This document shows positions 7,301 to 16,694 of a DNA stretch of 42,999 nucleotides, piece by piece (the first letter of the stretch is position 1; the number at the start of each line of letters is the position of its first letter). The stretch covers positions 1-42,999 of the forward strand of contig JAJQJM010000016.1 in the NCBI GenBank assembly GCA_021323475.1, in the 5' to 3' direction. Under the pieces are notes generated by a model. It searched no databases, was not told the origin of the DNA, and was given only the letters and a program-made list of their open reading frames with translations. A program made the position numbers and the translations under genes. This DNA comes from Vampirovibrio sp. (GTDB lineage: Bacteria > Cyanobacteriota > Vampirovibrionia > Vampirovibrionales > Vampirovibrionaceae).

Positions 7301-10300
7301 ATGAGTACCATTCGTCCATTTGTTCCGCTTCACGTGCATACGCACTATAGTATGCTGGATGCAGCCACGCGGGTGCCGGATCTGGTCAAAATCGCTTCGG
7401 AAAACAATATGCCCGCCGTGGCGATTACCGATCACGGGGTGATGTATGGGGCGGTGGAACTGTATAATACCTGCAAGGGCACCAATGTAAAGCCCATTAT
7501 TGGGGCGGATTTATACGTGGTGGACGGCGATATTACCGACCGTAGCAGTCGTCAGCCCATGCACCAGTTGGTGTTGCTCTGCAAGAACGAGATTGGCTAT
7601 AAAAACCTGGTCAAAATCGTGTCCCGCTCTCATTTGGAAGGGTTTTACTACAAGCCTAGAATTAACTGGGACATCATCAAAAAACACAGTGAAGGCTTAA
7701 TTGCGCTGACTGGCGACTTATCCGGTCCGGTGGCCCGTCCGGTACTGCGTGGCAACCTGGAGGAGGCGCGGGATAGGGCCAAGTTCCTGAAAGAGGTGTT
7801 TGGGGACGATCTGTATATTGAAATTGTGGATCACGGCAAGGAACCGGAATACCGGTTTAGTGTGGAAGCGGTCAAAATCGCTCAGGAGCTGGACATTGAG
7901 CTGGTAATCACCAACGATAGCCATTTCTCCCGCCCCGGTGATGAGACCATGCATAACATCCTGCTGTGCATGCAGCAGGGTAAAACGCTGGCGGAAAGTG
8001 CCGGGCGCGATATTTACGGGCCGCAATACTACATCAAGAATGGCGATGAAATGGTCCGCCTCTTCCAGCATCTGGATCGGGCCGTGGTGGAGCGCGCACT
8101 GGATAACACGCTGGTCATTGCCGACAAAATTGATTTTAAAATGGCCCAAGGGCAGTCCATTTTGCCGGATTATCCGATTCCGGAAGGTACGACGCTGGAA
8201 AGCGAGCTGCGCCGTGAAGTTGAGGAGTGCGCCCGAGAGCGGTTTAACAACAATATTACGCCGGTGATTCAGGAGCGACTGGATTTTGAGCTGGGCATCA
8301 TCAACCAGATGGGCTTTCCGGCTTACTTCTTGATCACGGCGGATTTTATTCGCTACGCGCGGGAAAACGATATTCCCGTGGGGCCTGGCCGGGGTTCCGC
8401 TGCGGGCAGCCTGGTGGCGTTTGTGCTGGGGATTACGGATATCGACCCTATTGAGCACAATTTGCTGTTTGAGCGATTCCTGAATCCGGAACGGGTATCG
8501 ATGCCTGATATCGATATTGACTTCTGCATCGACCGCCGGGAGAAGGTGATTGAATATGTGCGCCAGAAATACGGCGCGGACAAGGTCTGCCAGATTATCA
8601 CCTACGGTACGTTGGCCGCGCGGGCCTCGCTGAAAGCCGTTGCGCGGGTGATGGAAATTCCTTTTGCGGAAAGCGACAAGCTGGCCAAGATGATTCCTTT
8701 TGGGCCTTCCATCAAACTGAAAGACGCGCTGGAAGACGGCATGGAGCTGAAAAAGCTCTATGATACCGATCCGAACGTGAAGCAACTGGTGGATTTGGCG
8801 CTCTCCATTGAGGGTACGGCAGTAAGCGTGGGCATGCACGCTGCCGGTGTGGTGATTTCCAAAGACCCGCTGGACACCATTGTGCCGGTGCAGTACACCA
8901 AGGACGGCCAGGAAAGCGGCATGATCGTCTCCCAGTACCCGATGGGCGACCTGGAAAAGCTGGGCCTGCTGAAGATGGACTTCCTGGGCCTGCGAAACTT
9001 GACCATTATTGATAACACCGTGCAGGTGGTGAAGCAGACCCGTGGTGAAACCGTGGATATGCGCCACCTGCCGCTGGATGACCAGGATGTGTATTCCATT
9101 CTGACCTCCGGGGAAACGGACGGCATCTTCCAGTTGGAATCCGGCGGGATGAAGGCATTGGTGAAGGACTTAAAGCCTTCCGTGTTTGAGGATATCGGCG
9201 CGCTGGTGGCTCTGTATCGCCCCGGTCCGCTGAACTCCGGCATGGTGAAGCAGTTTGTGGACCGTAAACACGGCCGCGCCAAGGTGGAATTCAAGCACCC
9301 CGCGCTGGAGCCCCTGCTGAAGGACACCTACGGCACCATCGTGTATCAGGAGCAGATCATGCAGATCGCCCAATCCCTGGCGGGCTACTCGCTGGGACAG
9401 GCGGATTTGCTGCGTCGCGCCATGGGTAAGAAAAAAGCCGAGATCATGGAAAAGGAACGCGAGGGCTTCCTGGCGGGTTGCGTGAAAAATTCCGTGGATG
9501 AGGCGCTGGCGAACGAACTGTTCGACACCATGAGCGAATTTGCGGCGTACTGCTTCAACCGGTCACACTCGGCGGCCTATGCGCTGGTGGCTTATCAAAC
9601 CGCGTACCTGAAAGCGCATTATCCGGTTGAATATCTCTCCGCGCTGCTTTCCAGTGTGCGGAACGATTTGGAAAAAATTCAATACTACATTTTGACCGCC
9701 CGTAAAATGGGCCTGAAAATTCTGCCGCCGGATATTAATAGCTCCGGTCTTGAATTTACCCCGGATGGGGAGAGCGCGATTCGCTTTGGCATGGGATCCA
9801 TTAAGAACGTGGGCGTGGGCGTGGTGGAAAATATTATCGCCGCCCGTACTGAGAAACCCTTTACCTCCGTGGAGGATTTTTGTGAGCGTGTCGATCCCAA
9901 AGTGTTAAACCGTAAGACGCTGGAAAGTTTAATCAACAGCGGCGCGTTCGATAGCCTGGGTGTATCCCGCAAACAGCTATTCAGCAACGTGGAAACGCTG
10001 GCGAACTTTGCGGCCAAATGCCAGGAGCGCAAACTGACCGGCCAGGTAAATTTATTTGCCGCGCTGGGCGGAGGTGAAACCACCGGCGGCAGCTTTGGCG
10101 GATTGATTTTAACCGGCGATCCGGCCGAGTACACCCCGGAAGAAATCCAGCAACTGGAAAAAGCCTTGCTGGGCTTCTACGTTAGCTCTCACCCGCTGGA
10201 TAGTTTGCTGGATAAATTGCCCATGATGACCAGCCACGGCATCAGCGAATTAAAAGACATGCCGGATGGCGTGGATGTAGTAGTGGGTGGCCTCATTTCC

Positions 10301-10747
10301 AGCCTGCAAAAGAAAATCACCAAAACCAACCGCCCCATCTGGATTGGCAAGCTGGAGGACTTTACCGGCGAGACGGAATTTGTCATGTTCAGCGACGCCA
10401 TTGAGAAGATGGGCGAACAGGTGACAGATGGCGGCAGGGTGCTTATTAATGGCCGTCTGCAATTCCGGGGGGATAACGGGGAAAATTACAGCATCGTGGT
10501 GAACGAGGTTCGCCCGGTGGATGATGTGGAGCCGTTCAACATCTTCTTTGAAGCGCCGCCCAAGTGGGAAATTCTGCAAACCATCAGCACCATTCTGGTG
10601 AAAAATCGCGGGTTTAACCCGGTGATTCTCAACTTCAAGGATGGCACCCGCATTAAAACCGGCACCAAATTCTGGCTCAACGGCAACCGCGAAATTGTCA
10701 AAGAAACCCTAGAAACTCACTTCGGCCAAATCCTAAAGGTTGGGTAA
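7301..10747 (+). CDS. dnaE: DNA polymerase III subunit alpha
   Basis: 1148 aa; PHP domain HVHTHYSMLDA...AITDHGVMYG; GPGRGSAAGSLVAFVLGITDIDPIEHNLLFERFLNPERVSMPDIDIDFC; C-terminal OB domain. Confidence 0.97.
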   Translation: MSTIRPFVPLHVHTHYSMLDAATRVPDLVKIASENNMPAVAITDHGVMYGAVELYNTCKGTNVKPIIGADLYVVDGDITDRSSRQPMHQLVLLCKNEIGYKNLVKIVSRSHLEGFYYKPRINWDIIKKHSEGLIALTGDLSGPVARPVLRGNLEEARDRAKFLKEVFGDDLYIEIVDHGKEPEYRFSVEAVKIAQELDIELVITNDSHFSRPGDETMHNILLCMQQGKTLAESAGRDIYGPQYYIKNGDEMVRLFQHLDRAVVERALDNTLVIADKIDFKMAQGQSILPDYPIPEGTTLESELRREVEECARERFNNNITPVIQERLDFELGIINQMGFPAYFLITADFIRYARENDIPVGPGRGSAAGSLVAFVLGITDIDPIEHNLLFERFLNPERVSMPDIDIDFCIDRREKVIEYVRQKYGADKVCQIITYGTLAARASLKAVARVMEIPFAESDKLAKMIPFGPSIKLKDALEDGMELKKLYDTDPNVKQLVDLALSIEGTAVSVGMHAAGVVISKDPLDTIVPVQYTKDGQESGMIVSQYPMGDLEKLGLLKMDFLGLRNLTIIDNTVQVVKQTRGETVDMRHLPLDDQDVYSILTSGETDGIFQLESGGMKALVKDLKPSVFEDIGALVALYRPGPLNSGMVKQFVDRKHGRAKVEFKHPALEPLLKDTYGTIVYQEQIMQIAQSLAGYSLGQADLLRRAMGKKKAEIMEKEREGFLAGCVKNSVDEALANELFDTMSEFAAYCFNRSHSAAYALVAYQTAYLKAHYPVEYLSALLSSVRNDLEKIQYYILTARKMGLKILPPDINSSGLEFTPDGESAIRFGMGSIKNVGVGVVENIIAARTEKPFTSVEDFCERVDPKVLNRKTLESLINSGAFDSLGVSRKQLFSNVETLANFAAKCQERKLTGQVNLFAALGGGETTGGSFGGLILTGDPAEYTPEEIQQLEKALLGFYVSSHPLDSLLDKLPMMTSHGISELKDMPDGVDVVVGGLISSLQKKITKTNRPIWIGKLEDFTGETEFVMFSDAIEKMGEQVTDGGRVLINGRLQFRGDNGENYSIVVNEVRPVDDVEPFNIFFEAPPKWEILQTISTILVKNRGFNPVILNFKDGTRIKTGTKFWLNGNREIVKETLETHFGQILKVG

Positions 10748-10767
10748 ATAATTAAAGCGAGTGAAAT

Positions 10768-11520
10768 ATGACAGATATTCAGAAGAAGTGTTTTGTAATT
10801 GCACCTATTGGCAGCAAAGGGAGTGAGATTAGAAGGCGCTCTGACAAAATTTTAAAGCATATTATTAATCCTGTAATTGAGGAGTTTGATTATAGTGCTA
10901 TTCGGGCAGACAGCATGGATGAGCCGGGAGTTATTACATCTCAAATTATTCAGCATATTCTAAATGATGAGTTGGTTATTGCTGATTTAACTGGACATAA
11001 CCCCAATGTGTTTTATGAATTAGCAATTCGACATTTAGTACGAAAACCTGTTATTCATTTAATACAAGCAGATGAGAAAATACCGTTTGATGTATCGATG
11101 AATCGTACCATTTTTCTGGATCACACAGATCTTGATAGTGTTGATGAGTGCAAGTCAGCCATTCGTAATCAGATTCAGGCATTAGAGGATAATTCTTTAA
11201 AATTCGATTCTCCTATTTCCCAAGCTATTGATTTGGATAGAATTTGGCAGAAAAGTAATTCAGAAACTGTTAATTTAGATGACCTTTTAGTGCTTTTTAA
11301 GGAATTGAAAAGTGATATTGACGAAATTAAACATCAGCAACGCAGAGAGAGTGATTTAAAGAGAAAGCAGAGACATCTTACTGAAAAAAGGTTTCTGGAA
11401 TTTCTGGCGGATTCAACCGTTCAAAAAAATGAAGATATTCCAAATTTAGGTAAAATTAATAACTCAGCGGTTCTTAATCCTACAATTTATAATGCAATAA
11501 GAAATTTGAATGATACTTAA
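10768..11520 (+). CDS. TIR-like / nucleoside 2-deoxyribosyltransferase-like fold protein
   Basis: CFVIAPIGSKGSEIRRRSDKILKHIINPVIEEFDYSAIRADSMDEPGVITSQIIQHILNDELVIADLTGHNPNVFYELAIRHLVRKPVIHLI; ADLT..NPNVFYELA is the NDT/TIR-like catalytic-loop signature; C-terminal coiled coil. Distinctly AT-rich. Confidence 0.7.
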   Translation: MTDIQKKCFVIAPIGSKGSEIRRRSDKILKHIINPVIEEFDYSAIRADSMDEPGVITSQIIQHILNDELVIADLTGHNPNVFYELAIRHLVRKPVIHLIQADEKIPFDVSMNRTIFLDHTDLDSVDECKSAIRNQIQALEDNSLKFDSPISQAIDLDRIWQKSNSETVNLDDLLVLFKELKSDIDEIKHQQRRESDLKRKQRHLTEKRFLEFLADSTVQKNEDIPNLGKINNSAVLNPTIYNAIRNLNDT

Positions 11521-11567
11521 AGTTGTGCAATAAAGTTTAGATTATTAATTTGTTGAAGGTAAGAGTC

Positions 11568-12312
11568 GTGACTCAAACGTGGAATGCGGCGGAGTATCAG
11601 GCGACGGGGAATTTTGTGCCTACGTTGGGGGAGCCGTTGGTGGACTTGCTCAACCCTCAGCCGGGGATGCGGATTTTGTGTGGGCTGCGGCAACGGCACA
11701 CTCACGTTAAAACTGATGGAGCGGGGCGCAACGGTCGTTGGCATTGATGCCAGCGCGGACATGGTGCAAGCGGCCTGCCGCAAGGGTGTCGATGCTCGGA
11801 CGATCAGCGCGTATGATTTAACCTTTGAAAACGAGTTTGACGCGGTATTTTCCAACGCGGCGCTGCACTGGATGACGGATCATCCGGCGAAGGTGCTGGA
11901 GAACATCGCGAACGCATTAAAGCCCGGTGGCCGGTTTGTGGCGGAAATGGGCGGAGAGGGGAATATCGCTCATATTCGGGAGGCCGAGCGGCAAGCGTTA
12001 AATCGGCGTAATCTTGATTTGGAAACGGTGGCACCCTTATTTTTCCCTTCGAAGGCGCAATATCAATCCATGCTGGAGGCCGCTGGCTTTACGATTGAGC
12101 AGATTGAATTATTCCCCCGAAAAACCCGCCTGCCGGATGGTTTGGCAAACTGGCTGCGGGTATTTTCCACGGCGGTGCTTTCCAGCTTGCCTGCGGATGA
12201 CGTGGAGCCTTTCATTCAGGAAGTGGAAACACTGGCCCGGCCGTATTTAACCGATGATGAGGGCTGGTTTGCGGATTATGTACGGCTGCGGTTTAGCGCC
12301 CATAAGGCATAG
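11568..12312 (+). pseudogene. Class I SAM-dependent methyltransferase (trans-aconitate methyltransferase-like), frameshifted
   Basis: Frame from GTG 11568: MTQTWNAAEYQATGNFVPTLGEPLVDLLNPQPGMRIL, then shifted frame: VGCGNGTLTLKLMERGATVVGIDASADMVQAACRKG...NAALHWMTDHPAKVLENIANALKPGGRFVAEMGG. Break at about 11676-11680. Confidence 0.75.
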
Positions 12313-15971: not shown

Positions 15972-16694
15972 ATGAATACAAATGAATTCAAAGAGAGTGT
16001 TATGGTTTCGAATGTTCATCATCAATTAATCCGCGCATTTAACCCGTTGAAAAAATCCGTGACTCAACAAGTTGAGCAAGGTATGGCAAAACACAATGAA
16101 ATTAGACGATTAGAGAAAAGATTAGAAAAAGATCCGAATAATCCTACTCTGCTAAGAGCCATTTATTACCGGAAATATGGTAGAGATTTTAATGAAGTAA
16201 TGCGTACGGATGTAGGCTCTACTAAAAGTTGGCAGCAGTTACAGCGGATGATCGAGCGTGAGGACCTGCATTACTTAGCTGGTGTTGAACGTGCGGAAAC
16301 TGAAGCTCGAATCAAAGCGCTTGAGCAAGAACTATCCGAATCAAAAACAGCTTTGCAGGAAGCTTTTCGTGAACCTTCAATGCAAAATAGACAGGCAAAA
16401 TCGCAAGCTCACCTTCAACTTAAAGAAAAATTAGAAAAAGCTAAAGAAGGAAGAGATGAGCAGGTTAAAAACCTAAGCAAAGAAGCCAAAGATAATTTGA
16501 TTACACGTGGGCAGAATTCTTACGATACTAGGAGCTATATACAGGAACGACAGGATCACAGAATACCGAAACAGTCCCGCATGATGACCGCCGAGGATTA
16601 CAGACCCATTATCCTGAAAGCGGATGGTTCTCCCCTGTCGTTGGAAGATGAACTGAACGTATACAAGAGTTTGGCAATCAGAAAAAAATGGTAG
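15972..16694 (+). CDS. Hypothetical AT-rich, charged coiled-coil protein
   Basis: 240 aa, Lys/Glu-rich: NEIRRLEKRLEKDPNNPTLLRAIYYRKYGRDFNEVMRTDVGSTKSWQQLQRM...; codon usage visibly more AT-rich than neighbours. Confidence 0.6.
   Translation: MNTNEFKESVMVSNVHHQLIRAFNPLKKSVTQQVEQGMAKHNEIRRLEKRLEKDPNNPTLLRAIYYRKYGRDFNEVMRTDVGSTKSWQQLQRMIEREDLHYLAGVERAETEARIKALEQELSESKTALQEAFREPSMQNRQAKSQAHLQLKEKLEKAKEGRDEQVKNLSKEAKDNLITRGQNSYDTRSYIQERQDHRIPKQSRMMTAEDYRPIILKADGSPLSLEDELNVYKSLAIRKKW

Follow-up and report, generated by a model that had tools for sequence, protein, structure and literature searches.

The window, that is, the whole 42,999-nucleotide stretch of Vampirovibrio sp. DNA that was analyzed, carries directly behind dnaE an intact open reading frame (ORF) of 250 amino acids (aa) with an ATG start (10768-11520, + strand). 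The placement after dnaE given by an earlier sequence-only reading of this DNA is confirmed by the ORF check on the window, with 20 intergenic bases separating the dnaE stop codon (ending at 10747) from the ATG. The product of this gene is denoted P0001 below, and the gene and its surroundings comprise the following features:

7301..10747, + strand: dnaE, the left flank, a host gene used for synteny (sequence and genome comparison)
10748..11567, no strand: AT-rich stretch from the dnaE stop to the next gene, with the P0001 gene as its sole gene (60-base GC profile, gene GC and comparison with four congeners)
10768..11520, + strand: gene of the NDT/TIR-like protein P0001 (intact 250-aa ORF, PHROG 3634 match at E 8e-56, hundreds of homologues)
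11568..12312, + strand: class I SAM methyltransferase gene, the right flank, with native GC and a frame broken near 11680 (comparison with relatives)

With hundreds of homologues and a match to PHROG 3634, this reading frame did not arise by chance. The gene, which is single-copy within its 3.34 Mb draft genome, has the lowest GC content (0.336) and the lowest GC3 (0.256) of the 28 window genes as well as the lowest, i.e., most deviant, codon score, and the sliding-window GC over it is 0.33-0.35 compared to about 0.50-0.57 for most of the region. The AT-richness against GC-richer neighbors noted in the sequence-only reading is thus borne out by the GC and codon profiles alike. The neighboring genes are dnaE, the methyltransferase gene and prfC (dnaE and prfC being named from sequence); no CD-NTase cyclase gene is adjacent, and no mobility gene adjoins the locus, which is chromosomal. 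The search for insertion-end repeats around the gene gave none that were convincing, and the Rfam search at the locus found no RNA. On the strand of the gene, the promoter search yielded no candidates, with a single promoter-like site on the opposite strand, which is fewer than expected by chance. Given this lack of a same-strand promoter in the search and the location directly behind dnaE, the placement suggests that the P0001 gene might be transcribed together with dnaE.

Two other features of the window deserve mention. The methyltransferase gene has two bases fewer near 11680 than its intact relative in one of the compared genomes (G014, locus L035), which reflects either decay or an assembly error. 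A second AT-rich ORF, of 240 aa, is present at 15972-16694 (GC 0.40, GC3 0.36); it has no significant Pfam family, and its codon usage is the second most unusual among the 28 scored genes.

A mobile family with patchy distribution

Whereas dnaE was found in all 13 compared genomes, the P0001 gene is missing after dnaE in all four congeners, where the dnaE stop is conserved, the sequences diverge immediately 3' of it and other genes are found in this position. No close homologue of P0001 was detected in these four genomes, and among 240 genomes of the class only 16 have matches with E<=1e-10, mostly to longer or partial relatives. Given the absence of P0001 after dnaE in the congeners, the lack of close homologues there and the small number of matches in the class, the alternative that the gene is a conserved, syntenic neighbor of dnaE with native codon usage is excluded, in agreement with the earlier suggestion that the gene was inserted after dnaE. 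Weak matches in four relatives (G001, G004, G007 and G011) were considered as possible orthologues and rejected, being larger, different NDT-like proteins encoded elsewhere in the genome. In the congener G001, a tyrosine recombinase is encoded 3' of dnaE (L030, 4980-6400), next to a stretch that resembles a tRNA read as peptide; with this recombinase beside a tRNA-like stretch, the region behind dnaE appears to take insertions elsewhere too.

The match of P0001 to PHROG 3634 is nearly full-length (protein positions 5-223 against profile positions 3-222 of 237), and PHROG 10872 is matched as well (E 6e-41); neither of the two has an assigned function. The phage members of PHROG 3634 are mostly 33-46% identical to P0001 and come from temperate phages of Staphylococcus and Streptococcus, whereas the copy in the window is chromosomal. 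The scan of P0001 against Pfam and NCBIfam matched no family; specifically, neither a TIR model nor a DUF4062 model was matched in Pfam at E<=1, and there was no match to PF05014 (NDT), the latter being matched by 2 of 12 tested family members (best E 5.5e-5). Scanning the genome and viral contigs with P0001 alone returned no relatives, and phmmer with the single sequence against the PDB gave chance matches only. The alignment-based profile scan, in contrast, identified relatives, mostly single genes, in GTDB genomes (at least 584, archaea included) and in IMG/VR viral contigs (338), and the family profile reaches DNPH1 in the PDB by sequence (E 0.008). The literature search for exactly this family found nothing. 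P0001 adds one more protein to a large family that is as yet unstudied and falls in a known superfamily of immune enzymes.

The low GC content of the P0001 gene is typical of the family: of 80 genomic loci, 73 have a family gene whose GC content is below that of its surroundings (median difference -0.081, Wilcoxon p 8e-14), as do 62 of 65 viral loci (median -0.057, Wilcoxon 1e-11). The maximum-likelihood tree includes well-supported clades that mix phyla, such as Stahlbacteria with Acidobacteria and Verrucomicrobia, or Sneathiellales with Chlorobiales, with the caveat that transfer is not proven merely by there being more than one change per phylum; P0001 groups weakly with a Thermomicrobiales sequence, apart from the Melainabacteria relative. 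Given the combination of phylum mixing, AT bias and patchy distribution, horizontal spread is the simple reading of the family's history, and the P0001 gene was probably acquired in this way.

Fold and active site

The AlphaFold2 model of P0001, built from 91 family sequences, has a mean pLDDT of 88.5, with values of 97-98 across most of residues 11-100. The Foldseek search with this model yields a nucleoside 2-deoxyribosyltransferase (NDT) of Chroococcidiopsis as the best match (5e-6), followed by DNPH1 and the CMP glycosidases MilB and BcmB; the SPARTA TIR (3.6e-4), SfSTING and the SARM1 TIR (9e-4) appear further down. Hence the top-scoring matches are nucleoside/nucleotide enzymes rather than TIR NADases; the TM-scores by target are about 0.5-0.76 for single-domain matches. 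As modeled, the N-terminal domain of P0001 belongs to the NDT/DNPH1/TIR fold group, so the structural assignment made in the sequence-only reading stands; the motifs quoted there (CFVIAPIG, ADSMDEPGVITSQIIQHI and VIADLTGHNPNVFYELAIRH) are all present in P0001, and the predicted C-terminal coiled coil corresponds to a single helix in the model. The domains and key positions, all within the P0001 gene, are:

10768..11190, + strand: N-terminal catalytic domain of the NDT/DNPH1/TIR fold, residues 1-141 (AlphaFold2 pLDDT 87-98; Foldseek)
11275..11421, + strand: long C-terminal helix, residues 170-218, a probable coiled coil for oligomerization or sensing (AlphaFold2 secondary structure)
10792..10794, + strand: codon of F9, Phe at the catalytic Tyr position of NDT/DNPH1 (F9 aligned by hhalign to Y5 of the NDT/DNPH1 alignment; Phe in 91/91)
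10831..10833, + strand: codon of R22, a nearly invariant Arg after strand 1 and a candidate phosphate contact (Arg in 88/91)
10945..10947, + strand: codon of I60, hydrophobic at the position of the DNPH1 general-acid Asp (hhalign; I 47, V 42, A 1, M 1; acid in 0/91)
11017..11019, + strand: codon of E84, the invariant predicted catalytic Glu in NPNVFYE (91/91; aligned with the Glu of NDT/DNPH1)
11083..11091, + strand: P106-F107-D108 motif, which may complete the active site of the partner subunit, by analogy with the DNPH1 dimer (91/91)

The invariant residues of the 91 family sequences are F9, N78, N80, Y83, E84, P106, F107 and D108, and position 19 is Ser or Thr in 90 of the 91. The catalytic triad of DNPH1 consists of Y24, D80 and E104, with E104 as the nucleophile and D80 probably protonating the leaving base (PMC10483697, PMC12751057). 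In the hhalign comparison of the family with the NDT/DNPH1 set (probability 94.9, E 4.5e-8), F9 is aligned with the Tyr, I60 with the Asp and E84 with the Glu. Accordingly, the P0001 family has the fold and the catalytic Glu of DNPH1 and of the nucleoside 2-deoxyribosyltransferases (PF05014), but Phe and mostly Ile or Val replace the Tyr and the Asp of their triad. Given that both residues are missing in all 91 members, the label of deoxyribosyltransferase, which the sequence-only reading had attached to the protein, is not supported. A true nucleoside 2-deoxyribosyltransferase acting in salvage would be compatible with the common fold and Glu and with the high profile-profile probability, but so complete a loss of the Tyr and Asp, the lack of a PF05014 match and the AT-rich, mobile distribution leave this reading with almost no probability. 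Compared to canonical TIR NADases, P0001 has a TIR-type fold by Foldseek and the invariant E84, but no TIR match in Pfam.

The two replaced positions carry a prediction on the class of substrate. Where NDT and DNPH1 have the Tyr, a Phe or an Ala is usual among NADase TIRs, and the Tyr at that position accompanies specificity for 2'-deoxy substrates (PMC11204291). Because the family has Phe where the deoxy-specific Tyr stands in NDT/DNPH1, a ribose substrate is predicted. The nicotinamide of NAD(P)+ is a leaving group that does not need a protonating acid, and the loss of the acid Asp fits a leaving group of this kind. From these two residue positions of the profile alignment, we predict cleavage of a ribose N-glycosidic bond, with NAD(P)+ as the most likely substrate. 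The combination of Phe for Tyr and a hydrophobic residue for Asp would provide a sharp and testable criterion by which immune enzymes that cut ribose substrates could be told from true deoxyribosyltransferases of the same fold.

Genomic context in phages and plasmids

Members of the family occur in temperate phages and on plasmids. The family gene is antisense to the early operon in two of these phages, SAP-26 of Staphylococcus and SM1 of Streptococcus, and in Javan527 it is co-oriented with the repressor and integrase genes. Across 45 non-redundant viral contigs, in which genes were called by a simple longest-ORF script, the fraction of near neighbors on the same strand as the family gene is 0.49, compared to 0.68 for other genes of the same contigs (p 0.003). 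Prophages of S. aureus bear immunity genes in overlapping antisense arrangements, e.g., Tha (PMC11087260). Tha acts against phages as one prophage gene under the control of overlapping antisense transcription; the family resembles it in genomic logic only, Tha being a HEPN protein. The plasmid copies stand alone, often close to recombinases and IS elements.

In the genomes, no recurrent partner gene was identified, with no Pfam family found in more than 2 of the 137 flanking proteins; the lack of an adjacent sensor partner remarked on earlier for P0001 thus extends to the absence of a conserved partner in the flanks of the family genes. PADLOC families are about as common beside the family genes (142) as among control genes 5-6 positions away (131), i.e., there is no enrichment, with the proviso that near and control genes may share the same islands; a single SIR2/ThsA-like neighbor is among these matches. 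Given that PADLOC matches nearby are no commoner than those farther out, a defense-island location of the family, which the sequence-only reading had proposed to check, is not shown.

Two alternative roles bear on these observations. The family could be toxin-like or serve in the maintenance of lysogeny, its NADase-type chemistry being used to stabilize the element or to control the growth of the host rather than against phages; this would fit its stand-alone occurrence on plasmids and prophages with integrases and recombinases close by and the unenriched defense genes in the vicinity, but no antitoxin-like partner is conserved beside the family genes, and P0001 itself is encoded on the chromosome beside dnaE with no adjoining mobility gene, so we consider this role quite unlikely. 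Alternatively, P0001 could be a signal maker comparable to ThsB of Thoeris, supplying a separate effector with an isomer of cyclic ADP-ribose. P0001 and the ThsB-type TIRs have the fold group in common, and the Glu is invariant, but an effector-like neighbor does not recur among the flanking proteins and the lone SIR2/ThsA-like neighbor is likewise non-recurrent, which makes such a function improbable, and more so than a toxin-like one.

Relation to immune proteins and proposed role

TIR, DrHyd and SLOG domains have been placed in one group, which immune systems employ both as NADase effectors and for making signals, and a distinct TIR version has been described in small Firmicutes phages (Aravind and colleagues, PMC9503650); the latter is possibly the family of P0001. 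One link is to the NDT-like domain of the TPR-S/MAP3K TRAFs-binding proteins, with an hhalign probability of 99.7 (E 4.6e-26, 153 columns). The catalytic domains of these proteins (PF20308, PF13281) and of the family are homologous and have the NPNVYYELGIRH and PFD motifs in common; in P0001, however, the coiled coil of the long helix 170-218 replaces TPR-S, and the Pfam scan is negative. A second link is to the TIR effectors of CBASS and Pycsar. The PADLOC CBASS TIR effector profile PDLC00733 is matched by 12 of 12 tested family members, P0001 among its matches with E 1.2e-10, and one planctomycetal protein joins the family domain to the CAP12-PCTIR_TIR domain (PF10137). P0001 differs from these effectors in that it has neither a cyclase nor a ligand-binding domain and in that its match is partial, covering only positions 260-376 of 388, the C-terminal third of the profile. 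The search of 244 genomes from the phylum for a full-length effector of the PDLC00733 type gave no match, but neither did its controls, so that this negative carries no information.

These fusions weigh on a further alternative, namely, that P0001 is a ribonucleoside monophosphate N-glycosidase of the MilB/BcmB type, acting on CMP or a modified nucleotide in nucleotide turnover or in counter-defense on mobile elements. In its favor, Foldseek matches both of these CMP glycosidases, the closest viral model (34% identity) bears the name CMP/hydroxymethyl CMP hydrolase, and a 5'-phosphate could be bound by the conserved S/T19, R22, N78 and N80. However, the viral name is an automatic annotation, the family has no acid where DNPH1 has its base-protonating residue, and the fusions to TPR-S and to the CAP12/Pycsar TIR point to immunity; we regard this alternative as rather unlikely.

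We prefer, with moderate confidence, to see in P0001 an immune effector of the NADase type that is directed against phages, acts as a single gene and was acquired horizontally; its substrate, oligomeric trigger and outcome are those that we infer. The N-terminal NDT/TIR-type domain would cut a ribonucleotide N-glycosidic bond, most likely that of NAD(P)+, through catalysis by Glu84. The long C-terminal helix would keep P0001 in a dimeric or oligomeric form and link its activation to an infection cue. A phage cue would release or assemble the active sites, and active P0001 would deplete NAD(P)+, so that the infected cell stops and phage growth is aborted. The single-gene defense or abortive-infection role put forward in the sequence-only reading is therefore plausible, as a role that we infer. 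More tentatively, the whole family might be a widespread and as yet unnamed one-gene defense system that cleaves NAD(P)+ and is found on chromosomes, on plasmids and in temperate phages, a stand-alone form of the NDT-like domain of TPR-S/TRAFs-binding proteins in which the variable C-terminus would serve as the phage sensor. If this is correct, the hundreds of family members known from bacteria, archaea and temperate phages would represent single-gene NADase defense, and the recurrent catalytic domain of the TPR-S and TRAFs-binding proteins would gain a simple stand-alone relative. The family, which now lacks an assigned function in the libraries used, would then be easy to test and to add to defense-finding tools.

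A precedent is provided by DUF4062, a different family of the same group, which is a NADase with tested anti-phage activity (preprint, PMC13174449). DUF4062/Swarozyc and the P0001 family are alike in the TIR/NDT-group domain, the single conserved Glu, the auxiliary C-terminal region and the patchy horizontal spread. This likeness is an analogy in the mode of action: P0001 has no DUF4062 match, and the auxiliary domain of Swarozyc is a portal-binding one.

Several other domain architectures were observed among the relatives. The planctomycetal fusion protein (L082, 8001-9080) consists of a family-type NDT-like N-terminal domain and the CAP12/Pycsar TIR (PF10137, E 3.6e-38), and five loci of the same class as P0001 (L243-L247) encode proteins of 450-470 aa in which the family catalytic domain is combined with TPR-S and the MAP3K TRAFs-binding model. 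Three family members (L107, 5538-6434; L132; L135) have an N-terminal extension before the catalytic domain, which in L107 is helical and possibly DNA-binding. Congener and family genomes also have low-GC genes for a different NDT-like architecture, in which the N-terminus is rich in Cys and resembles a zinc ribbon (L037, 6826-7800; L038, 6523-7623; L039, 8473-9525).
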